From Protula sp. h YS-2021 (lineage: Eukaryota > Annelida > Polychaeta > Sabellida > Serpulidae): a stretch of 64,000 nucleotides of DNA. The notes beneath the pieces are model-generated. The model was given only the letters and a program-made list of their open reading frames with translations. It ran no database searches and was not told where the DNA came from. The stretch covers positions 14,005,051 through 14,069,050 of the forward strand of contig OX457029.1 in the NCBI GenBank assembly GCA_949752745.1. Direction: 5' to 3'. Shown one piece after another: positions 47,045 through 61,612 of the stretch (position 1 is the stretch's first letter; every line of letters begins with the position of its first letter). The position numbers and the translations under genes were made by a program.

Positions 47045-47722
47045 CTGAGAAATTTAAGAGTGCACTCGTACAGAGTTGTGAGGGGGAAAACCGATCAATA
47101 ATTTCAGAGTGCGCTCGAGTCTGGGAACAATCAATAAATTTGAGAAGGAATGGGATTTTCCCTACGTTAAGTCCAATGTTATGTTTTAAGTTATAGTAGT
47201 TGGAAAAATGACACTTCTAAAACACATTTAACAAATGTAGTTTTTTAACACCATATAATATATAAAATAAGTTTGAACATTTTAGCATGCTACTTATTTG
47301 AATATTCTAAAGTCATAGTAGTGGAAAAATGGTGGTTCTAGACCAATTTTAACAAATTTTGTTTTTTGACAAAATATTATGTATAAAATAAGTTTAAACA
47401 TTTTACCATGGTGTAGTAGGGTAAAAATGAGGGTTTTAGACCAACTTTAAAAAATTTTGTTTTTTGACAAAATATGATGTATAAAATAAGTTTGAACATT
47501 TTATCATGATGTAGTAGGGTAAAAATGAGGGTTCTAGACCAACTTTAACAAATTTTGTTTTTTTGACAAAATATGATGTAGAAAATAAGTTTGAACATTT
47601 TACTATGGTGTAGTAGGGTAAAAATCAGGGTTCTAATCCAAAATTTAATTTTCTTTGAAAATATATTATGCTTTTCTTTTCTTAATGCTTTCAGGTATCG
47701 TCAGAACACATCGCTCTCCGCT
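47042..47722 (+). repeat. Polinton left terminal inverted repeat
   Basis: About 680 bp that match the right end in reverse complement, with the inner limit at ...catcgctctccgct (47722). It contains about five tandem units near 97 bp, each with a 'gtagtagggtaaaaatgagggttctagacc' core, and outer units with 'gagtgcactc' and 'attgatcgg'. The TIR holds no long frame. Confidence 0.9.
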
Positions 47723-47759: not shown

Positions 47760-47817
47760 GGATGAGTGAGACCTACATTTCATCATATCAGTTTAGGCAA
47801 TTGACGTGACAACAACA

Positions 47818-50800
47818 ATGGCATCTAATTCAGACACATTAGTCATCTGTCATGATTGTAATGTGACATTTCCATCTCATGAATTGTTCGTAGCACATAC
47901 ATGCAAACGAGCTAAGATGAAACGTGCTAATGAAGAGCTTGTTGAGATGATTGAAGCCAAGAGACGAAAGACGGTACAAGATGGTGTTTTCAGACCTCAT
48001 CCAGTCCTCTGCTGTGAATGCATTAAAATATTTCCATCTATGGATACATTTGAGGCACATGCATGCATACCAGCTGAGATGGAAAATGCGTCTCATGAAG
48101 AACATGTTTCACAGAAAGAAAAAACAGGACAAGTAGGGAGAGGTAGAAGGGTTAGTCTGGGAGAAAACGCACAGGAAAGACGATTTGAGTCTGAGGATGG
48201 ATCGGATTTACTGCTTGAAATGCGACAACAAGAGAACCGTATCAAGACACATTTGTTGGAGACCTTAAACTATGGAATGAAATGGTACATTGTCGTTCAT
48301 GCACGTTTCAAGAAACTGACAGCGAATGCTGAAGGTGTTATGGTAGAACAAGTGGATAATTCATTTATCAGCAGTCCAACATATACAGCATACAACCCAG
48401 CAGATATTGAGCAGGACTTGCCAGACGCCTATAAAGAATTGTTTACTAAGTTTGATGAACATGAGCGACAAGGCTCTGGCTGGGTATTGGATAACATACT
48501 ATACATTGAAGTACATACAGCTACGTCAGCGCCACTGGATGCGAGTAGTTTTATTCCACTGCCGAAGAAAGTGAAGAATACATTAGGTGTGTTAAACATT
48601 CAGAATAAAGACAATAAATGTTTCTTATGGTCTGTACTGGCTCACCTTCACCCTTCAACAAATGTAAACCCAGAGCGTGTACATCAATACAAGCTATTTG
48701 AGAACGAATTGAAGGTGGAAGGCATGACATTTCCAACACCGATTACAGACATTCCAAAGTTTGAAAAGGAGAATGATGTGTCCATTAACGTGTTTGGATA
48801 TGAACATGATGTCGTTGTTCCCATACAACTCAGTCGAAACACCAGCGCCAACAGCGCGAGAGAAATCAACTTGCTTTTGATTAGCAATGACAAGACAAGA
48901 CATTATTGCCTCATCAAGAATTTCAGCAGACTGATGGCTTATCGATCAAAGCATAATGGTGCAGCTTTTTATTGTTTCAACTGTCTTCACGGGTTTATGC
49001 GACAAGAGCTTTTAGATGAACATCGTGAAGTGTGTGGCAAGCATGGCGCGCAACGTTTATCATTTCCCAAGGAACCATTCGTTAAGTTTAAGAATGTAGC
49101 CAAACAACAGCGAGCACCGTTTGTGATTTATGCAGACTTTGAATGTTTCACGCAAAAGCATGAAGAAGAAGACAAGTATCAACATCATCGTCCAAACAGC
49201 TTTGCCTATGTGGTTGTCAGCCAGTATGATACACGTGCACCAATCGTGTATCGAGGAGACAATGCTGTAAAGGTCTTTTTAGACCATATGTTGAATGAAC
49301 GTGATCGTATTGTACGTGGTTTAGAGCGACCAAAGGAAATGGTGATGACTCGCGAAGACAAAGAGAATTTTAAGAACGCTGTTGATTGCTACATTTGTCA
49401 TGAACCTCTAGGAGCAGATCGTGTGAGAGATCATGACCATATCAATGGCAAATATCGTGGAGCAGCGCACAATGAATGCAACTTACAATTCCGACTTAGA
49501 AAGGATCAGCAAGGGGATAAAGATTCTTTTATCATTCCTGTGTTTTTCCACAATTTGCGAGGCTATGACAGTCACCTTATCATGGAGGAAATTGGAAAAT
49601 TCAAAGATGAAACGATTACAGTCATTCCCAACACCATTGAGAAATATATTGCATTCACCATGAGCAATCTGAAATTTACAGACAGCTTTCAGTTCATGAG
49701 TACTTCTCTACAGAAGTTGGTATCCAACCTAGCGGCAGAAGGGAAAGACAACTTTTATAACATGACGTCACACATTCACAATAGTGACCAACAAGATTTA
49801 CTGTTGAGAAAGGGCGTATACCCTTATGATTACGTGGATGAGCCATCCAAGTTTGCTGAAACACAACTGCCGTCCAAGGACAAGTTTTACAGTCTGCTCA
49901 GTGAAGAAGACATTAGCGATGAGGATTATGCGCATGCGCAGAAGGTGTGGGAGACATTCAACTGTACAACATTTGGCGAATACCATGACTTGTACCTGAA
50001 ATCAGATGTGTTGCTGCTGGCTGACGTGTTTGAAAACTTTCGTCACGTATGTCTCAACACATATGAATTGGATCCTGCTCACTACTATACAGCACCAGGA
50101 CTGTCGTGGGATGCAATGTTGAAAGCGACAAAGGTGAAGTTGGAATTGATCAATGACATTGACATGTACCAAATGGTTGAGCAAGGCATACGTGGAGGAA
50201 TATCCGTGATCACACACAAGTATGCGAAAGCGAATAATCCCTACGTAGCAGATTACAATTCTGAGATACCAAACAACTATTTGATGTACCTCGACGCAAA
50301 CAACTTGTATGGTTGGGCCATGTCACAAAGCATGCCACAAAGAGGATTTATGTGGGTGAGCGAGCCAGAATCCATTGACTTCATGGATGTGGATGAAGAT
50401 GACGACATTGGATTCATTTTGGAAGTGGATTTAGAATATCCAAATTCAATCCATGATCATCATAATCACTACCCAGTGGCTCCAGAACGGAAATGTGTAA
50501 AAGTTGAAGAATTGTCAGAGTACAGTCAGAAGCTGCGGAAAGATCTAAACATGAAAGAGAAATCCAGTGAAAAGCTCATTCCTAACTTGTCTGACAAGAA
50601 GAAATATGTACTTCATTACAGGAATTTGCAACAGTACGTCTCACTGGGGTTGAAAGTCACTAAAGTACATCGCGCCATCATGTTTGAACAGAGCAAATGG
50701 TTGGCAAAATACATTACCTTGAACACGGAAAAGAGAAAATTGGCCAAGAACCCATTTGAGAAAGACTTCTTCAAACTGATGAACAACTCGGTGTTTGGCA

Positions 50801-51540
50801 AAACCATGGAAAATGTGAGAAAGCGAATCAATGTTGAACTTGTTCACAAGGAAAAGCGGTTTAAGAAACTTGTGGCCAAACCTTCTTTCCACAAATTCAA
50901 AATTTTCAACGAAGATTTGACCGCGATACATTTACGCAAAGTGGATTTGCTTCTGGATAAACCCATTCAAGTTGGTTTTACCATTCTCGACCTCAGCAAA
51001 GTGCTTATGTTCAACTTTCATTACAACTACATCATGGTCAAGTATCCCAATGCCAAGTTGTTGTTCAGCGACACCGACAGTCTATGTTACGACATAGAAA
51101 CGGAAGATATCTACAAGGATATGCAGCAAGATGCTGACCTGTTCGACACAAGTGACTATCCGCCAGATCACTTCCTACATTCCAACGTGAACAAAAAAGT
51201 GCTTGGGAAAATGAAGGATGAGACGGCAGGCGTCCCTATTGAAGAGTTTGTTGGACTCAGACCGAAAATGTACAGTTTATTGTGCGGTGGGAAAGAAAAA
51301 CATACAGCTAAAGGCATCACTCAAGCTTGTCAAAGACGCATTAAACATGTGCAGTATAGAGACAGTTTGTTTAAGAAAACTCAAACGATGGCTACAGGAC
51401 ACATTATCCGAAGTCATAGTCACCAGCTTTTCTCGGAGAAGTTGAGGAAAGTAGCCCTCTCCCCATATGACGACAAGCGATATGTGATGAGTGATGGCTA
51501 TTCCACCTTAGCGCATGGACATTACAAGGCTATGGTATAA
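47818..51540 (+). CDS. polB: Protein-primed DNA polymerase B of a Polinton
   Basis: A 1240-residue replicative polymerase; the start is the first ATG after a TATA box. In order: two Cys/His modules (CHDCN...HTC about 10-27 and CCECI...HAC); a region with DNKCFLWS (about 263-270) and RHYCLIKN (about 360-367); a third Cys/His module (FYCFNC about 385). Exonuclease motifs follow: I YADFEC (about 438), II HNLRGYD (about 579), III YLKSD (about 726). Between I and II is an endonuclease VII-like zinc module, CYICHEP...RDHDH..GKYRGAAHNEC (523-555). Polymerase motifs are A LDANNLYGWAM (about 825), B KLMNNSVFGKTM (about 986) and C SDTDS (about 1084). All catalytic acidic residues are present. Length and order fit Polinton PolB. 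Confidence 0.96.
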   Translation: MASNSDTLVICHDCNVTFPSHELFVAHTCKRAKMKRANEELVEMIEAKRRKTVQDGVFRPHPVLCCECIKIFPSMDTFEAHACIPAEMENASHEEHVSQKEKTGQVGRGRRVSLGENAQERRFESEDGSDLLLEMRQQENRIKTHLLETLNYGMKWYIVVHARFKKLTANAEGVMVEQVDNSFISSPTYTAYNPADIEQDLPDAYKELFTKFDEHERQGSGWVLDNILYIEVHTATSAPLDASSFIPLPKKVKNTLGVLNIQNKDNKCFLWSVLAHLHPSTNVNPERVHQYKLFENELKVEGMTFPTPITDIPKFEKENDVSINVFGYEHDVVVPIQLSRNTSANSAREINLLLISNDKTRHYCLIKNFSRLMAYRSKHNGAAFYCFNCLHGFMRQELLDEHREVCGKHGAQRLSFPKEPFVKFKNVAKQQRAPFVIYADFECFTQKHEEEDKYQHHRPNSFAYVVVSQYDTRAPIVYRGDNAVKVFLDHMLNERDRIVRGLERPKEMVMTREDKENFKNAVDCYICHEPLGADRVRDHDHINGKYRGAAHNECNLQFRLRKDQQGDKDSFIIPVFFHNLRGYDSHLIMEEIGKFKDETITVIPNTIEKYIAFTMSNLKFTDSFQFMSTSLQKLVSNLAAEGKDNFYNMTSHIHNSDQQDLLLRKGVYPYDYVDEPSKFAETQLPSKDKFYSLLSEEDISDEDYAHAQKVWETFNCTTFGEYHDLYLKSDVLLLADVFENFRHVCLNTYELDPAHYYTAPGLSWDAMLKATKVKLELINDIDMYQMVEQGIRGGISVITHKYAKANNPYVADYNSEIPNNYLMYLDANNLYGWAMSQSMPQRGFMWVSEPESIDFMDVDEDDDIGFILEVDLEYPNSIHDHHNHYPVAPERKCVKVEELSEYSQKLRKDLNMKEKSSEKLIPNLSDKKKYVLHYRNLQQYVSLGLKVTKVHRAIMFEQSKWLAKYITLNTEKRKLAKNPFEKDFFKLMNNSVFGKTMENVRKRINVELVHKEKRFKKLVAKPSFHKFKIFNEDLTAIHLRKVDLLLDKPIQVGFTILDLSKVLMFNFHYNYIMVKYPNAKLLFSDTDSLCYDIETEDIYKDMQQDADLFDTSDYPPDHFLHSNVNKKVLGKMKDETAGVPIEEFVGLRPKMYSLLCGGKEKHTAKGITQACQRRIKHVQYRDSLFKKTQTMATGHIIRSHSHQLFSEKLRKVALSPYDDKRYVMSDGYSTLAHGHYKAMV

Positions 51541-51597: not shown

Positions 51598-51954
51598 ATG
51601 GAACGTGAAAGTCGTAAGAGATTTACAACTGATATGGATACTCTTGCAGATGCAGTTAAAGACTTAAAAGTGAAAAATCCTACCACTACCATCAAGAAAT
51701 TGAAAGTGGAGACAGCACCAACACCACAGTCGTGGGATGGAATGCTTTCTCTAGGAAATGGAAAGTATATCAAGATTATGAAACAAAGCAATGAAGGAGT
51801 GGTAAACATTCGCAAGTACTTGAGAGATGAGGGGACTGGAAAAAACCGTCCAACGAAAAAGGGAATTTTGCTGACAATACCTGAATGGAAAATGTTGAAG
51901 AAGCAGGTGAAAGAAGTGGATAAAAGGCTTCGCAGACAAGAAGACGACTCATAA
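51598..51954 (+). CDS. PC4-like single-strand-DNA-binding protein
   Basis: 118 residues. After a charged N-terminal segment (about 1-45), residues 50-112 follow the PC4/SUB1 (p15) coactivator pattern: LGNGKYIKIM strand, VNIRKYL strand, a GTGKNRPTKKGILLT hairpin, then the IPEWKMLKKQVKEVDK helix, very like the GRKGISL...W..L..QI..ID ending of PC4. PC4 family proteins bind single-stranded DNA as dimers, so a role in strand-displacement replication or late transcription is likely; that is inference. ATG context is aacATGg, 58 bp after the polymerase stop. Confidence 0.75.
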   Translation: MERESRKRFTTDMDTLADAVKDLKVKNPTTTIKKLKVETAPTPQSWDGMLSLGNGKYIKIMKQSNEGVVNIRKYLRDEGTGKNRPTKKGILLTIPEWKMLKKQVKEVDKRLRRQEDDS

Positions 51955-51966
51955 CAAGGTAAAAAC

Positions 51967-52338
51967 ATGAATGCACTCATGCTGAACCGTGGTGCTTACC
52001 TTACTGTAAATGATAGGAATGAAGTGATACTAGGTTCTCAGACAAGTTATCATCGGTTTAAACCTGAAGTGTGGAAAGACTTTAAAAACATACCACTTGA
52101 ACATGGGTTTAAACGTAGACTTGAAAATAAAGTGGAAGTGACGGTGGCTGAATATGATTCTAACATACGTGTAGAAATCTGTAGAAATCTTTTACAGGAT
52201 TATCCAGAGGATTATAAGGGAGTTGTGCCAGATACACCATATACAGATTTGATCATCTTTGATATCAAGAACTGGCGCGCAGTCTTACGATTCCTAGAAG
52301 TGATACAACATCCACTCTTCACCATCTTGCGAGCATAA
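51967..52338 (+). CDS. Small protein, probable diverged double PC4-like module
   Basis: 123 residues, start 12 bp after the preceding stop. I recognise no named family, but the second half (VEVTVAEYDSNIRVEI ... TDLIIFDIKNWRAVLRFLEVI) repeats the strand-strand-strand-helix layout with the W of PC4. The first half (GAYLTVNDRNEVILGS...FKPEVWKDFKNI) is a shorter version. It probably arose by duplication of the neighbouring PC4-like gene and may share its nucleic-acid-binding role. The fold is inferred from pattern, not from alignment. Confidence 0.55.
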   Translation: MNALMLNRGAYLTVNDRNEVILGSQTSYHRFKPEVWKDFKNIPLEHGFKRRLENKVEVTVAEYDSNIRVEICRNLLQDYPEDYKGVVPDTPYTDLIIFDIKNWRAVLRFLEVIQHPLFTILRA

Positions 52339-52343
52339 AAAAC
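52334..52343 (+). promoter_or_regulatory. Possible TATA-like box overlapping a stop codon
   Basis: CATAAAAAAC, including the TAA stop of the preceding gene (52336-52338), lies 60 bp before the next ATG (52394). This is the same geometry as the box at the polymerase stop, but the match to TATA is weaker. Confidence 0.3.
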
Positions 52344-52393
52344 GTCTTTGCAGACAAGGAGACAGCTCATAGTTCATCTGACTGTTGAACGAG

Positions 52394-52735
52394 ATGGAAG
52401 ACTTTTTATCGGAATATGAACCCATTACGCATGGATTCTCATATCTGAGAAACGTATATGATGACATCGTGCTAAAACATTTTGGAAAGTATATCATTCT
52501 ATCAACTGACGAACAATCTGTGTTGAAAGACCATCTAGAGAAGCTGAGGATACCTGGCTTTCTCCTGAAACTCTCAGAGGATTTAGAAGTGCGTGTGACT
52601 GAGAACTATTTAGACGTGTTTGTACGATTTCGCCAATATGACGAGCTTACAAAATGCTACGACTACATCACCCTCAACACAGTGGAATGGCAAATGGCAC
52701 GCTCTGTTACAAGCATTGGATTGGAAAGAACCTGA
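52394..52735 (+). CDS. Small protein, probable diverged double PC4-like module
   Basis: 113 residues from the first ATG (MEDFLSEYE). Frame-only start codons lie slightly upstream but are not ATG. The second half (LEVRVTENYLDVFVRFRQ ... YDYITLNTVEWQMARSV) has the PC4-like pattern of three strands then a helix starting with a W. The first half (IVLKHFGKYIILSTDEQSVLKDHLEKL) is a shorter strand-strand-helix unit. This is the third of four such genes in a row. No named family recognised. It overlaps the next frame. Confidence 0.55.
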   Translation: MEDFLSEYEPITHGFSYLRNVYDDIVLKHFGKYIILSTDEQSVLKDHLEKLRIPGFLLKLSEDLEVRVTENYLDVFVRFRQYDELTKCYDYITLNTVEWQMARSVTSIGLERT

Positions 52736-53025
52736 CGCTTGAATTCAAAGAGGAAGGAGTGCAACTCATGCGAGGCACCAAGTCCATTGAACTGACGCAT
52801 CCCATGTGTGTTATGGTGATGAACATTGACATGAATGATCATGGATATGAACTGAAACTGTCTGAACATGAAGATGTTAAAATAATAAAGTTTGGTAGTG
52901 GACAGTGTTATGCTAGTTTTCATAGCATTTACAAACGTGGATGTAATGTCTATGATACATATATTAATTTAGATTGGTATGAATGGCATGTGTTTATCGA
53001 TGTATTGAATGTATTTGTAAAATAA
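52687..53025 (+). CDS. Small protein, probable diverged double PC4-like module
   Basis: 112 residues from ATG 52687, overlapping the previous gene by 49 bp in another frame. Alternative ATGs are 52654 and 52768; I prefer 52687 because it keeps the first strand (LTLEFKEEGVQL). The C-terminal half (VKIIKFGSGQCYASFHSIYKR ... YDTYINLDWYEWHVFIDVLNVF) repeats the layout of its neighbours, again with W before the helix. The stop overlaps an AATAAA. Function unknown; single-strand nucleic-acid binding is a reasonable guess. Confidence 0.5.
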   Translation: MANGTLCYKHWIGKNLTLEFKEEGVQLMRGTKSIELTHPMCVMVMNIDMNDHGYELKLSEHEDVKIIKFGSGQCYASFHSIYKRGCNVYDTYINLDWYEWHVFIDVLNVFVK

Positions 53026-53178: not shown

Positions 53179-53616
53179 TCAATAAAATAATGGTTTATAA
53201 TGTCTATATACAAAATCCTTTACAACAAAATCACCATCACTTCTTCTTAATACATCAATGATTTTAAAAGGACTATGTCCTCGAGCTCTTTGAATTATAT
53301 AATACACACAATAAAATCCACATGTAGAGGATATTGGTGTTTGTAATGGAACTGAATTATAAATGAAATTAAACTTTAAAAACTTATTCAAACGACTGTC
53401 TATAGGTAAAAGTCCATAAGAGTCAAAATATTCTGCAGGGTCTTCGTCATAATATACTGCCACCCAATGCTCTCCTGGCTCATCATGATCGTCTGTGTTG
53501 ATGACATAGGCACCGCGTTGTAAAGATGGTAACTGGTCCATGGCAAACACACCTTGGAACAAGTCTTTTGTCGTGGCATCATGGGATAGGATGGCTTCTA
53601 TCTGCTTCGTGTTCAT
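53179..53616 (-). CDS. Adenain-like cysteine protease
   Basis: 145 residues; maturation protease of the adenovirus/Polinton type (family C5), expected to process virion proteins. Catalytic pattern: GEHWVAVYYD with His50, EYFDSYG with Asp65 (acid), LQTPISSTCGFYCVYY with oxyanion Gln92 and Cys99. This is the H-(D/E)-Q-C order of adenain but in a shorter protein. The ATG overlaps the capsid gene stop as ATGA, suggesting coupled translation. Last gene of the - block. Confidence 0.92.
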   Translation of the reverse strand: MNTKQIEAILSHDATTKDLFQGVFAMDQLPSLQRGAYVINTDDHDEPGEHWVAVYYDEDPAEYFDSYGLLPIDSRLNKFLKFNFIYNSVPLQTPISSTCGFYCVYYIIQRARGHSPFKIIDVLRRSDGDFVVKDFVYRHYKPLFY

Positions 53617-56160: not shown

Positions 56161-56385
56161 TCATGTTTGACACTCTTCATCTTCACTTTCTACATTGTTG
56201 TCTACATTGTTGTCTACATTGTCGTCTAAATTGCTATCTACATGATCTAAATTGGTATCTACTACTTCTCCCTGACAACAAGCACTAACACACCTAATTT
56301 TTACAGGAATGGTATTTTTATTTCCATTTTCTTTACAACAACAACAACACCATAGCTCTTTAATCCATGTTAAAAAGTTTCCCAT
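56161..56385 (-). CDS. Small Cys-rich protein with N-myristoylation-like start
   Basis: 74 residues. MGNFLTWIKELWCCCCC starts with Gly2 and is followed by five consecutive Cys, a combination typical of dually acylated membrane-associated proteins. A KIRCVSACC segment follows, then a very acidic tail with repeats of DNVDNNV. The start overlaps the end of the preceding gene by 16 bp in another frame. No family recognised. Position among the virion genes suggests membrane association or assembly, as inference only. Serine is absent at position 6 of the classical myristoylation signal, so acylation needs testing. Confidence 0.6.
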   Translation of the reverse strand: MGNFLTWIKELWCCCCCKENGNKNTIPVKIRCVSACCQGEVVDTNLDHVDSNLDDNVDNNVDNNVESEDEECQT

Positions 56386-56960
56386 CCTTCTGGAAACAAC
56401 CTTTGTTGACGTTGTTGTATCTCTTTTGTAATATCTTCACGAGTTGTCTTTTTACCAAAAACAGTTTTTGGAATATTAGCATCTACAATTTCCTCAATAA
56501 ACTGCTTCCAACCATGCGGTGGTTCTCGTCGTTCTTTTCTTCTTGTAGTAACCAATGCTTCTTTCAACAAATCAATAATGTTGGAATTTGTAATGACAGT
56601 ACCCGTTTTTAAAACAAGTTCATTTTTATCTGTCCATCTCGTACCATATTTCTTAAGTTCTGCTAGAAGTTGTGTTAGTTTTACATGATAAATAGGTTGA
56701 AAATGGCTTAGAAACTGTTGGGACTTTTCTGATTTTTCTGCTTTGGATGATGTAACAGACTTTTGCCGCTGTTGTTGCGACTGAATTGTTCGTAAATGAC
56801 GACCAAGAACTTGAGACATTTCTATTGCCTTTTCACGAGTTCGTTTCCCACGTAAAAGTTTATTCACTTTCGTTTTGATTTCACCATCTTTTCCCTTCTT
56901 TTCTAACAACATTTTATATTCATATTCAGGAATGAGGACCATTTTCATAGTATGTTTCAT
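56370..56960 (-). CDS. Conserved-looking Polinton protein of unknown function
   Basis: 196 residues. The N-terminus MVLIPEYEYKMLLEK, a basic middle rich in Gln/Lys/Ser and a C-terminal region with NSNIIDLLKEALV ... PPHGWKQFIEEIVDANIPKTVFG resemble uncharacterised proteins found between the ATPase and penton genes of other Polintons. I know no function. The ATG overlaps the previous stop as ATGA. Confidence 0.65.
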   Translation of the reverse strand: MKHTMKMVLIPEYEYKMLLEKKGKDGEIKTKVNKLLRGKRTREKAIEMSQVLGRHLRTIQSQQQRQKSVTSSKAEKSEKSQQFLSHFQPIYHVKLTQLLAELKKYGTRWTDKNELVLKTGTVITNSNIIDLLKEALVTTRRKERREPPHGWKQFIEEIVDANIPKTVFGKKTTREDITKEIQQRQQRLFPEGWETF

Positions 56961-57283
56961 TTTAACAGCAACTGAGCTAACAAGGGTAATGCAAATTTAG
57001 CAATAGCTCCAATGAATCCTCCTTTCTGATTAACCAACTTCTTTTTTCTTCGAAGTGATATCTTCTTATCTGCTAGTGTACGTAGGGTATGACGTTCACG
57101 CTTGAATACCTTATACCTTTTTGAGCTTAAGGGTAAATGTCCTCGCAATATATTCAAACAAATTTCAAACAAGCTAGTTAATTCTTCCTTAGTAGCTTGT
57201 TGTAGCAAGGATTTACGTCGTTTAGGCCCGCTGCGTGCGAGCAAGTGAAGAAATGGTTGATTCGCTTGAATACGTTTAGACAT
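56957..57283 (-). CDS. Small basic Polinton protein with C-terminal hydrophobic helix
   Basis: 108 residues. An N-terminal helical region (LFEICLNILRGHLPLS) is followed by a Lys/Arg-rich segment (LADKKISLRRKKKLV) and a Gly-led hydrophobic end (KGGFIGAIAKFALPLLAQLLLK). This three-part layout is common to a small protein of Polintons and adintoviruses. The basic part could bind DNA and the hydrophobic end could contact membranes; both are inference. The start overlaps the ATPase stop by 8 bp. Confidence 0.65.
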   Translation of the reverse strand: MSKRIQANQPFLHLLARSGPKRRKSLLQQATKEELTSLFEICLNILRGHLPLSSKRYKVFKRERHTLRTLADKKISLRRKKKLVNQKGGFIGAIAKFALPLLAQLLLK

Positions 57284-57935
57284 CTTGGTTGCGAATGGTT
57301 AAGTGACTTGGTTCTTGTTCATACGCCACCTTATCAACATAGACGTAATGTGTATCTTTTGGTAAAATGCCTGTACGAATACGTAGTTGATCATTTGTCT
57401 TCGGCTTCAAATCAATGAATAAATAGCCATGAGGTTTGCTGGTAGCATCTTGATAGGCTTCTATGAGAAATTGAGATTTTCCAGGATACATTTGTCGCGC
57501 TAATGTACTTATTTGTTGACTGTCTCTAGGATTTTTAAACAGAATGATGTAATGTGTATTCAAACTAATATTTCGCATTTCTCTACCATGATGAAACAAA
57601 TTATGCACAATAAAAATAATGCTTAGATTTTGATGACTGCTACCAACACTAAATAGACGTGTCATGCGTTCATCACTATGACATTTGGTCATTAAGTCAT
57701 CAATGATGAGTAAGTTTGGTTTTTTCGGGTTAAAACGCTCTTCAATGTCATCTGGAATGCCTTGGTAAAATTCCACACCTTTCATTCCCTTGTACAAAGG
57801 CTGATCTGCTGCATAGAGCCATAAAATGGTTTTTGGAGAGGGTTTAATTAACTTTTGTTCTAGAATTTCTCTAACTAGAGAAGTTTTACCACTGCCTGTA
57901 GGTCCAGAGACCAAACACGTGAATGGATGCTTCAT
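57276..57935 (-). CDS. Genome-packaging ATPase (FtsK-HerA type)
   Basis: 219 residues from ATG 57935. A longer frame exists but starts with TTG. Walker A is GPTGSGKT (11-18) and Walker B LLIIDDL (75-81), with a SIIFIVHNLFHHG segment and a polar sensor region after it, as in the A32-like packaging ATPases of Polintons and related double-jelly-roll viruses. It would drive DNA into preformed capsids. The ATG overlaps the chromodomain ORF stop as ATGA. Confidence 0.93.
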   Translation of the reverse strand: MKHPFTCLVSGPTGSGKTSLVREILEQKLIKPSPKTILWLYAADQPLYKGMKGVEFYQGIPDDIEERFNPKKPNLLIIDDLMTKCHSDERMTRLFSVGSSHQNLSIIFIVHNLFHHGREMRNISLNTHYIILFKNPRDSQQISTLARQMYPGKSQFLIEAYQDATSKPHGYLFIDLKPKTNDQLRIRTGILPKDTHYVYVDKVAYEQEPSHLTIRNQDV

Positions 57936-58237
57936 TTTCGAATATCTGTTTCTTTCACCCAACTGTTAAACTTCTTTGGCCAACCTAACCACTTCACAAA
58001 TAATTCTTTAACACCTCGTCTTTTTCGTGTTTTCAAGACCTTTTCAATTCTGTAGACTGATTCAATATCTTTTGTCACTTTCTGCAGTTCTTCTTCATAA
58101 AAATGTCCGTCAATATCTTCATCCAAAAAGTCTTTCACACGATACAAGTGTATTCCTTGCTTCTTACAACGATGTGTGATAATGAACACTTCTTGCGTCC
58201 ACTTTATATGATAATCCCGTTGAAATACATATTTCAT
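57932..58237 (-). CDS. Chromodomain protein, detached C-terminal part of the integrase
   Basis: 101 residues. The first 45 look like the end of the SH3-like domain that follows the catalytic core in Polinton integrases. Residues 61-99 are a chromodomain (VYRIEKVLKTRKR.GVKELFVKWLGW...NSWVKETDI) with cage aromatics Tyr62, Trp83 and Trp93. In most Polintons core and chromodomain are one protein; here they are separate frames meeting at ATGA. Chromodomains of this type bind methylated histone tails and direct integration. It may be made by re-initiation, or the split may be a single-base lesion. Confidence 0.85.
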   Translation of the reverse strand: MKYVFQRDYHIKWTQEVFIITHRCKKQGIHLYRVKDFLDEDIDGHFYEEELQKVTKDIESVYRIEKVLKTRKRRGVKELFVKWLGWPKKFNSWVKETDIRK

Positions 58238-59034
58238 GTGAGAATGCGAACCTGATCACCAATTTTAAATTTGTAGGGTTTTTTCTTCTTCTTTGGTTTT
58301 AATTTCAATTTGTCTACATACATATACTTCCACACTTTCGATTCTATGTCTTTACGAATATCTGCAGGAGCATACTTATTAGGGAGGGAGCCATGAGGTC
58401 TATGGTTGTAATTATACACTAAGTCTGGAAGGATGTCCATATATCGATACGTTTGATTATGTAGGAAATATCGATACATCATTCCCTTTAGAGTACGAAT
58501 GACTCTCTCAGCAAAGTTGGCTTTGGTTTCATTCTTTGTCGTATAGGCATGTATTCCCTCCTTCTTCATAAATGCTTTTACCCATCTGTTTTTAAATTCA
58601 GTTCCTTTGTCTGACCTTAGAGTTCGTGGTCTTCGTTGTGTTTCATGAAAAATCTTTTGAAAGGCTTCTATGACACTCGTATGTGATTTATTAGGCATTG
58701 GTTGCACCCATAAATATTTGGAAAACACATCAATGACAACTAATAAAAAACGGGTGTCATCATTATAGGAAGCTATGTTTCCCATGTCAGCTAAATCAAT
58801 ATCCCACATGTCATCAATTCCACGTGTAATGACACGTTGCCTTTTAAACCTATATTTTACAGGTTGTAGTAAACTGAAGGCATCTTGATCCTGTAACCAT
58901 TTCTTCACTTGTGAATGAGTGACTGGTTGATCATGTTTTCTTAATATGTGATATAGTTTGTAAGGACCAGCAAATGCCCCGGGTTGACCAGGTTTAAAAT
59001 AAATATTGGTTAAGTAGTCTTTCCACGTCGACAT
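58234..59034 (-). CDS. Integrase catalytic core (retroviral/Polinton type)
   Basis: 266 residues. The DDE acidic residues appear to be Asp80 (MWDIDLADM), Asp142 (LRSDKGTEF) and Glu176 (NFAERVIRTLKG), giving a near D-D-35-E arrangement. The frame ends within the SH3-like domain (KFKIGDQVRILT) where other Polinton integrases continue to a chromodomain. The continuation lies in the next frame, sharing ATGA with this stop. It catalyses insertion of the element. The start context gttaacATGt is nearly the same as that of the PC4-like gene. No canonical slippery site leads to the next frame. Confidence 0.93.
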   Translation of the reverse strand: MSTWKDYLTNIYFKPGQPGAFAGPYKLYHILRKHDQPVTHSQVKKWLQDQDAFSLLQPVKYRFKRQRVITRGIDDMWDIDLADMGNIASYNDDTRFLLVVIDVFSKYLWVQPMPNKSHTSVIEAFQKIFHETQRRPRTLRSDKGTEFKNRWVKAFMKKEGIHAYTTKNETKANFAERVIRTLKGMMYRYFLHNQTYRYMDILPDLVYNYNHRPHGSLPNKYAPADIRKDIESKVWKYMYVDKLKLKPKKKKKPYKFKIGDQVRILT

Positions 59035-59114: not shown

Positions 59115-59447
59115 TTACAAATCAAGTATTGATACAATGGTGTGAATAATTGGAGTCCATTGATCTTCAATGTACATTAACCAACTACTTAATTCATCAA
59201 ATGTGATAGCATCTACACCATATTTTTCACAACGTTGATTTGCATTATCTAACACTTTATCTAAATGAATGTAATATTTAGCTTCATTCCAATATGTATA
59301 GACACATGTAGAATGACAAGTATGTTCTGAACACTCTTCATTTTGACAAGCAGGACATACTAAACATGCAAACTTTTTTACAGCTAATAACATTTCTTCA
59401 CAATATGTCTTTTGCACAATATATTGTCTCAATGTAATGTCTGTCAT
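59115..59447 (-). CDS. Small Cys-rich protein, unknown function
   Basis: 110 residues from ATG 59447. An upstream GTG gives a longer frame but I prefer the ATG. The centre has LVCPACQNEEC...HTCHSTC, enough paired Cys/His for a zinc-binding module, flanked by helical segments. The start shares a base with the previous stop (TAATG), a known geometry for termination-coupled re-initiation. No family recognised. It lies between early-type genes and the integrase. Confidence 0.55.
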   Translation of the reverse strand: MTDITLRQYIVQKTYCEEMLLAVKKFACLVCPACQNEECSEHTCHSTCVYTYWNEAKYYIHLDKVLDNANQRCEKYGVDAITFDELSSWLMYIEDQWTPIIHTIVSILDL

Positions 59448-59734
59448 TATACTGCAATGTAGATTAGCCACTCTCTCACTTCATAAAACAGTCTTGGATC
59501 AAATCGAGCAAAGTGATATGCTGCTTCCACATCAAACTCCTCAGCTCCGTCAATGTTTGAAAGCACACACTCTTTGATGAAATCCTCACGTAATTTCGGT
59601 ACGTTCAGCGTGGAATGAGCAAGTTCCCAATAGATGTCAAAGTGTTCCAGTTGTTGTTGAATAGATCCAAAACGCGCCAGTTCACTTATCATGTAGTCCA
59701 CATACGTCTCCTTGAAAAACGTTTCTACATCCAT
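59447..59734 (-). CDS. Small helical protein, paralogue of the 60493-60912 protein
   Basis: 95 residues. It aligns by eye with the protein at 60493-60912: FFKETYVDYMISEL vs VFKVNYVDYVFSKL, then YWE vs HWE, DFIKECV vs EFIHSFL, and FDVEAAYHFA vs YDIDSAFIRA, in the same order and spacing. All-helical appearance, acidic overall. No known family. A duplication within the element is the simplest explanation. Confidence 0.6.
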   Translation of the reverse strand: MDVETFFKETYVDYMISELARFGSIQQQLEHFDIYWELAHSTLNVPKLREDFIKECVLSNIDGAEEFDVEAAYHFARFDPRLFYEVREWLIYIAV

Positions 59735-59798: not shown

Positions 59799-60419
59799 TT
59801 ACTCGGCAGATACTGTTAGTGAGCCACACTTGTTGCAGAAGTTGTCAGGTTCACACAACTTGCAATTGTACTTGTGGCAGTGACAATCATAATCCTCAGC
59901 ATATCCGTAAGTACCACAATATTCACAGGTAAGTCCAAGTTGATTTTGCACATCCATATTCTCCAATCGAACTTCAGCCAGTCTTTTCTTGGAAAGCTTT
60001 GACACTTTCATTCGATTGTCCTTTTGCAGCTTGATAGGAGTTTTCTTCCCATGACATTCCGTACATGGCAGTAAGGTTGAGGTTATGCTATGGATTTCCT
60101 GAAGCAATGTCCCCCATTCACCATCATTCATGTTGATGTAACGCGTATATTCTTTCCCTTCAAACAGTGATGTTTGCACAAAACTCACATAGCGCATATC
60201 CAAGTATGAAATGACTTCAAGCCACTTCGTTTGCGTTAAGTACAGTTTGAAGCCAATGTTGCGTAATCTTGCCAAGTTCTGACACACAATCTTCCACAAG
60301 GATGGTGATAAAGTAAGCCATCTCTCTCCACGTTTGATTCGAAGAAATAGCCCAAATTCTCCATGCTCCACAGTAATGGTTAAGTTTGCACTAATTTTAA
60401 AGCTGCTTGTCTTCTCCAT
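59799..60419 (-). CDS. Double PC4-like module plus C-terminal zinc-binding region
   Basis: 206 residues. Residues 8-55 (LTITVEHGEFGLFLRIKR...WLTLSPSLWKIVCQNLARL) and 58-112 (KLYLTQTKWLEVISYL...YVSFVQTSLF...YTRYINMNDGEWGTLLQEI) show the repeated strand-strand-strand-helix layout with W at the helix start, as in the small proteins after the polymerase. The C-terminal part has CTEC, CEYC, CHC, CKLC and CNKC pairs, enough for two zinc sites. This suggests a nucleic-acid-binding early protein. The name rests on pattern, not on a database match. TATA-like tataaaa lies about 75 bp upstream. Confidence 0.6.
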   Translation of the reverse strand: MEKTSSFKISANLTITVEHGEFGLFLRIKRGERWLTLSPSLWKIVCQNLARLRNIGFKLYLTQTKWLEVISYLDMRYVSFVQTSLFEGKEYTRYINMNDGEWGTLLQEIHSITSTLLPCTECHGKKTPIKLQKDNRMKVSKLSKKRLAEVRLENMDVQNQLGLTCEYCGTYGYAEDYDCHCHKYNCKLCEPDNFCNKCGSLTVSAE

Positions 60420-60490: not shown

Positions 60491-60497
60491 TTTTATA
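60491..60497 (-). promoter_or_regulatory. TATA box overlapping a stop codon
   Basis: TATAAAA on the - strand, containing the TAA stop of the 139-residue protein (60493-60495) and lying about 75 bp before the ATG of the double-PC4/zinc protein. The geometry is the same as at the polymerase stop. Confidence 0.45.
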
Positions 60498-60912
60498 GTT
60501 CTTCAAACATTTTACAAAGCTTTGAATTCACCTCAACTCGTTCATTGTTGAATCGAACAAGTTCTGATGCATTCGTCGTCAATGGAACGCCATCATCATA
60601 ATGTAAAATAATTCTAGCAGCTACAGCTAGCATGAGTTCAGCTGCCCAAGTTGTATTCGCGCGGATAAATGCTGAATCAATGTCGTAAGTTGATGGTAAA
60701 AGTAGTTCTTCACATTCGTGTAGAAATGAGTGGATGAATTCATCTCTTGGAATTATCTTTCCAACAGCTTCCCAATGCTTATGCAAATTCTTCACTTGTA
60801 AAATCCAATTAGATTCAAAAGCAGGAAGCTTTGAAAACACATAGTCAACATAGTTCACTTTGAAGACGTCATCCATGGTCTCTACACATCGGTGAAGAAG
60901 TAATGTTGACAT
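60493..60912 (-). CDS. Small helical protein, unknown; first gene of the - block
   Basis: 139 residues, starting 18 bp inside the right TIR (acaATGt). No known domain; helical, with conserved-looking FKVNYVDYVFSKL, HWE and DIDSAF segments shared with the shorter paralogue at 59447-59734. A second ATG 12 codons in (MDDVFK) matches the paralogue start and may be the real one. Its place next to the TIR suggests transcription from a promoter in the TIR. Confidence 0.6.
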   Translation of the reverse strand: MSTLLLHRCVETMDDVFKVNYVDYVFSKLPAFESNWILQVKNLHKHWEAVGKIIPRDEFIHSFLHECEELLLPSTYDIDSAFIRANTTWAAELMLAVAARIILHYDDGVPLTTNASELVRFNNERVEVNSKLCKMFEEL

Positions 60913-60930: not shown

Positions 60931-61612
60931 AGCGGAGAGCGATGTGTTCTGACGATACCTGAAAGCACTAAGAAAAGAAAAGCATAATATGTTTTCAAAA
61001 AAAAATTAAATTTTGGATTAGAACCCTGATTTTTACCCTACTACACCATGGTAAAATGTTCAAACTTATTTTATACATTATATGTTGTCAAAAAACAAAA
61101 TTTGTTAAAGTTGGTCTAGAACCCTTATTTTTACCCTACTACACCATGGTAAAATGTTCAAACTTATTTTATATATCATATTATGTCAAAAAACTAAATT
61201 TGTTAAAGTTGGTCTAGAACCACCATTTTTCCACTACTATAACTTTAGAACATTTAAATAAGTAACATGCTAAAATGTTCAAACTTATTTTTTATATTAT
61301 ATGTTATCAAAAAACTACATTTGTTAAATGTGTATTAGAAGTGTCATTTTCCAACTACTATAACTTAAAACATAGAGTTGGGGAAAATCCCATTCCTTCT
61401 CAAATTTATTGATCGTTCCCACGGTCTAGGCCTTTGATGTTTTCAAATTTATTGATCGTTCCCACGGTCTAGGCCTTTGATGTTTTCAAATTTATCGATC
61501 GTTCCCACGGTCTGAACGAGTGCACTCTGAAATTTTATTGATCGGTTTCCTCCACACTCTGAACGAGTGCACTCTAAAATTTATTGATCGGTTTCCCCAC
61601 ACTCTGTACACA
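60931..61612 (-). repeat. Polinton right terminal inverted repeat
   Basis: About 680 bp matching 47042-47722 in reverse complement, starting at agcggagagcgatgtg. It differs from the left copy by scattered substitutions and by repeat number: three 97-bp units visible here, and an extra tandem unit 'caaatttattgatcgttcccacggtctaggcctttgatgtttt' at 61400-61490. The match fades after ctctgtac (about 61609). Confidence 0.9.

Follow-up and report, generated by a model that had tools for sequence, protein, structure and literature searches.

We analysed a 64,000-nucleotide stretch of the genome of the serpulid annelid Protula sp. h YS-2021 (assembly GCA_949752745.1, contig OX457029.1, positions 14,005,051-14,069,050 of the forward strand; here called the window), which holds a Polinton/Maverick element carrying a PC4 gene and genes for PUR/PC4-like proteins. 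Four plus-strand open reading frames (ORFs), g1 to g4, lie at positions 51598..53025 directly after the ORF taken to encode the polymerase PolB, an arrangement that an earlier model's interpretation of the letters alone (the sequence-only reading) had described and that our map confirmed. As judged by profile comparison, g1 encodes a PC4-domain protein, and g3 and g4, together with a further gene of the element (c206), belong to one family with two modules per chain. The set of PC4 and double-module genes recurs in the Polinton lineages of this genome, with varying gene order. We give roughly even odds (about 0.5) to the reading that the block is an element-encoded kit for binding single-stranded DNA (ssDNA), which would coat and unwind the ssDNA of the element during copying.

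PC4 and double-module proteins

The first gene, g1 (51598..51954, plus strand, 118 amino acids (aa)), matched PF02229 in Pfam with E 2.3e-9 and 37.1 bits, over the curated cut-off of 25, and the best solved structure in a PDB sequence search was PC4 6ycs (E 1.9e-7), which identifies it by sequence as a PC4-domain protein, as the sequence-only reading had proposed. No relatives of g1 or g2 turned up in protein searches, and scans of IMG/VR with g1, part of a capsid-like ORF, two PolB alignments and the double-module family gave no confirmed relative.

Three proteins of the element, g3 (52394..52735, plus strand, 113 aa, with an ORF end that is altered in the window copy), g4 (52654..53025, plus strand, a listed ORF of 123 aa that overlaps g3) and c206 (59799..60419, minus strand, 206 aa), form by sequence comparison a family of double-module PUR/PC4-like proteins, here called doubles. 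Within the element, BLASTP linked c206 to g3 (E 0.001) and to g4 (E 0.025), and in leave-one-out comparisons with hhalign g3 and g4, both taken from locus L009, matched the other doubles with E 7.7e-9 and 9.7e-15, respectively. The family of seven also includes relatives from L060 and L062, which belong to another lineage, and P0001 and P0002, which alone matched out of 536 candidates from a large protein collection. Taken together, the seven proteins matched PC4 with E 7.1e-6 and a set restricted to cellular PC4 with E 3.7e-5 (none of 100 column shuffles did as well); module 2 alone reached E 2.2e-6 against PC4 and module 1 E 4.1e-5 over 24 columns, and the two modules matched each other with E about 1e-3, the hhalign values for doubles and PC4 being single pairwise tests and not database searches. 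An aromatic residue like F77 of PC4 is retained in six of the seven doubles.

The sequence-only reading had gone further and seen a run of four PC4 genes, which was not upheld. Pfam gave no match up to E 10 for g2, g3 and g4 and none over any family cut-off for g3, g4 and c206, the closest PF02229 score among the relatives of the doubles being that of P0001 (E 0.16, 11.9 bits); since the doubles are not PC4 by Pfam and g2 is at chance level against PC4 (E 0.15, 22 of 100 shuffles as good), the designation was rejected. PHROGs gave nothing below E 0.04.

The same reading counted three further genes as double-module genes, which stands for g3 and g4 through their family with c206 and is unproven for g2 (51967..52338, plus strand, 123 aa), a putative member. 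The match of g2 to the doubles (hhalign E 0.013) is co-linear over both modules, scores above all 46 background proteins and was equalled by none of 100 column shuffles. Shuffling of residues, in contrast, gave a score as high in 5 of 300 cases, which speaks against membership. The gene lies in the same reading frame as g1, and an open frame of 249 aa, instead of 121 or so, was present at the PC4 gene in 6 of 150 scored g1 copies (C1:34393261, C2:20186446, C3:2349541, C5:19135280, C5:39433548 and C6:228157); in the two of these six that were read (L063, L064) g1 and g2 are fused in one 246-aa ORF. This fusion and the co-linear match argue against g2 being an unrelated small protein, with the kit consisting of g1, g3, g4 and c206 only, whereas the residue shuffles, the chance-level score against PC4 and the lack of a g2 match in all five older-lineage loci described below (tblastn, E up to 0.01) favour it; we consider this somewhat less probable than the opposite.

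For c206 prediction gave a usable model, in which a single chain holds two beta4-alpha repeats. It is the only protein whose two-module layout has such a model behind it, as the model of g3 folded alone (pLDDT 41) was useless and was set aside, and for g3 and g4 we infer the fold from homology. The predicted layout of c206 is like that of Pur-alpha repeats I-II (3k44, 5fgp), which also have two beta4-alpha modules per chain and dimerise within the molecule, binding and unwinding nucleic acid in this form, so the likeness to PUR double repeats suggested from the sequence is borne out by the model; c206 differs from them in its low identity (10%) and in its Cys/His-rich tail. Neither finding that the sequence-only reading had said would refute it, a lack of a PC4 profile match for the first gene or of the four-strand/helix topology in the others, turned up for g1 or for c206, a gene outside the range that it described. 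Membership of the doubles in the PurA family by sequence was rejected: Pfam gave no PF04845 (PurA) match for c206 to E 10, and across the whole genome seven PF04845 candidates yielded six matches, clustered in about 8 kb of C9 and none in a Polinton, which are taken to be the host PurA gene.

In a Foldseek comparison of the c206 model with viral models, the top match was an unnamed Bacillus phage protein (J9PUR2, E 1.2e-4), and ranks 2 and 6 were held by the MOSUB proteins of two adintoviruses, Polinton-related animal viruses (A0A5H3CT48 and A0A5H3CIS2, of 197 and 203 aa; E 5.5e-4 and 3.1e-3 over 121 and 157 columns, as matches between models). The name MOSUB suggests MoSub1, a PC4 orthologue; a literature search found no paper naming both MOSUB and adintovirus. 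Whirly and MRP1/MRP2 differ from c206 in coming from plants and trypanosomes and in giving no Pfam sequence match to it. A Cys/His-rich C-terminal stretch, beginning at about residue 116 of c206 (59799-60074, minus strand), is common to c206, L062, P0001 and P0002; it is perhaps a zinc-binding tail, in a part where the model is poor.

Copies and lineages in the genome

Copies were searched in one genome, that of the window itself (863 Mb, 218 contigs). Of 6202 g1 candidates in it, the 150 best each covered the full length with at least 97% identity, and 148 of them had no stop, which argues that the four-gene block is not a product of chance; 11 of these 150, the window copy included, were identical. 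Among 30 near-identical loci, which are the top g1 matches and were picked by g1 identity, the ORFs of g1, g2 and g3 were of equal length in all 30, and an uninterrupted g4 ORF of 126 aa was found in 28. The two others are the window copy and L029, and the g4 ORF of L029 begins like those of the 28 standard loci. A small insertion at the junction of g3 and g4 is unique to the window copy among the 30 loci and changes the end of g3; the two ORFs overlap in the window. Intact copies exist elsewhere in the genome. Among the 30 copies pN/pS was 0.67 for g2, 0.76 for g3 (altered window copy included) and 0.69 for g4; a value of 0.11 for g1 was set aside because the copies had been picked by g1 identity. 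Between lineages pS was 0.81-0.85 for c206, PolB and g4, with pN of 0.41, 0.22 and 0.46, respectively, and as synonymous sites are near saturation we make no strong claim from these values.

The sequence-only reading had suggested looking for the same block in other Polintons, and the set was found again in other lineages of this genome. PolB-body pieces stood beside PC4 in 5 of 28 loci (L005, L040, L043, L052, L053), which represent an older, degraded lineage with 74-78% DNA likeness; there a g3-like gene comes next in all five, a g4-like gene in four and g2 in none. In a second, well-preserved lineage (L060, L062), PolB is followed by a double of 112 aa, and the integrase end carries PC4, an ORF of 119 aa and a c206 relative of 211 aa (44% identity). 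A genome search with PF02229 gave matches over the cut-off for all of the best 150 of 5119 candidates; the window copy was not among them and their lowest score (40.7 bits) was above that of g1, so these matches are probably families other than that of the window. The highest of them, L001, resembles a host PC4 exon. Likewise, all of the best 150 of 9417 candidates in a genome search with P0001 were matches.

A short, non-autonomous Polinton derivative was also observed (L050:1110-5969 and L045, the repeats having been checked in both), and related PC4-centred DNA is present in L039, L041, L044, L046-L049, L051 and L054-L058. Its inverted repeats are about 1 kb long or more, those of L050 matching the repeats of the window Polinton at 71-89%, and it carries a PC4 ORF, what remains of g3 and a C2H2 zinc-finger ORF that reaches 251 aa, identified by Pfam in the L006 copy; no PolB body was found in it. 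In this derivative (22 and 16 loci) pN/pS was 0.40 for the PC4 domain, a value biased by the choice of loci by PC4 score, 0.67 for the N-terminal part of PC4 and 0.56 for the zinc-finger ORF.

Gene content of the element

The element is assigned to the Polintons/Mavericks by its PolB, rve integrase, packaging ATPase, adenain-like protease and terminal inverted repeats (TIRs), with the protease 0.2 bit under its cut-off and with PolB called by its sequence motifs. The TIRs (47122..47722 at the left and 60931..61421 at the right, outer ends approximate) are inverted matches of each other and 77-98% complementary. The ORF that we take to be PolB (47806..51540, plus strand, 1244 aa) shares 60% identity with its counterpart in L060 and gave in Pfam a weak Endonuclease_7 match under the cut-off and nothing else. 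On the minus strand lie the adenain-like protease (53179..53616; PF00770, E 2.7e-4, 21.1 bits, just under the cut-off of 21.3), the packaging-type ATPase (57276..57962; PF02456, 33 bits over 21, and PF04665, 26.9 over 22.8) and a chromodomain ORF with an integrase ORF (57932..59034; PF00385, 34.8 bits over 25.1, and PF00665, 44 over 32.6); two ORFs at the usual place of the capsid genes had no match in the Pfam scan. Between the ATPase and these capsid-like ORFs is a group of small minus-strand ORFs (56161-57283) with relatives in L042 and L052, two of which were scanned and had no Pfam match. The minus-strand ORFs at 59447-59734, for which Pfam gave no match, and 60493-60912 are related to each other (BLASTP E 5.5e-5), and the same end of the second lineage (L062) holds two ORFs matching the latter at 68% and 26% identity.

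Possible role of the set

Polintons copy their linear DNA by a protein-primed PolB that displaces one strand, and because of this displacement a protein that holds the strand would be needed. In such a kit, g1 would be the PC4-domain part, g3, g4 and c206 would each contribute two PC4-fold modules per chain, arranged as in Pur-alpha repeats I-II and perhaps forming dimers in the same manner, and these four proteins would coat and unwind the single-stranded DNA of the element during copying.

Several results weigh against such a kit. Human PC4, according to PMC4350104, contacts ssDNA through the basic residues R70, R86, R100 and K101 and through stacking by F77 and W89, and alanine at F77 or W89 abolishes ssDNA binding. 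In the alignment g1 keeps the basic contacts (K, R, K and K, respectively); it differs from PC4/Sub1, whose family cut-off it passes, in having neither aromatic, with Q at F77 and L at W89, so that its binding of ssDNA may differ or be lacking altogether. All six aligned Polinton PC4s carry I or L at position 89, and at position 77 five carry Y and g1 carries Q; the residues at these two sites in the host-like locus L001 are F and Y. The link between doubles and PC4 also weakens in narrower hhalign comparisons: the family matched the Polinton PC4s alone with E 9.6e-4 and in a different register, individual doubles matched PC4 with E 7.9e-5 to 0.089, and g1 alone matched the doubles with E 0.018. 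A database-wide sequence search of the doubles was not significant; its PDB match to MoSub1 (E 0.13 with one profile) did not recur, a second profile giving no PC4, and was dropped as proof.

The same proteins might instead serve transcription of the element, as coactivators of PC4/PUR type by which its promoters are opened or early expression gives way to late, in keeping with the description of PC4 as a transcription cofactor (PMC4350104) and of Pur-alpha as a transcription regulator (PMC4764581). We find this rather unlikely: it would suit the second lineage, where PC4 lies at the integrase end and away from PolB, and the short derivative, which retains PC4 and a zinc-finger ORF with no PolB body detected, but in the window lineage and in the older lineage the genes stand directly after PolB. 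That the proteins target the host, as decoys or partners of host PC4 or Pur-alpha which blunt repair, silencing or DNA sensing, seems very unlikely to us; the genome does hold the host-like PC4 locus L001 and one PurA locus, and a non-binding partner of host PC4 might lose its stacking residues as g1 has done, but the F77-like aromatic in six of seven doubles suits direct binding and nothing in the analysis indicates a host target.

As an extension of the ssDNA-binding kit, Polintons could have turned a PC4 module into single-chain dimers of PUR type, independently of the Pur-alpha family, and multiplied these into a multi-gene strand-displacement kit; that the short derivative kept PC4 along with a zinc-finger gene and the inverted repeats would then look as though PC4 acted on the ends of the element itself. 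We consider this reading unlikely, not least since the doubles are nearer to cellular PC4 (E 3.7e-5) than to Polinton PC4 alone (E 9.6e-4), a point against their having arisen within the element.

The sequence-only reading had placed PC4 outside the standard Polinton gene list. This agrees with our literature search, in which no paper joining Polinton with PC4 or coactivator p15, or Maverick with PC4, was found, and with the absence of PC4 from the main text of the Polinton/adintovirus papers examined for it; it does not extend to the sequence databases, where depositors have already named the PC4-related kind as MOSUB in the protein records of two adintoviruses. Vertebrate Mavericks, as described in PMC8097293, are like the window element in having PolB, ATPase, integrase, protease, TIRs and accessory regions at both ends; the words 'PC4' and 'coactivator' are absent from the main text of that paper, and its supplements may name accessory genes. 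Within the literature and database searches made, the combination of one PC4 gene with several PUR-type doubles in the same element appears to be new, as does the short derivative. No account of how Polintons handle the displaced strand was found in the part of the literature examined, and a named PC4/PUR-fold gene set makes this step of their replication testable.
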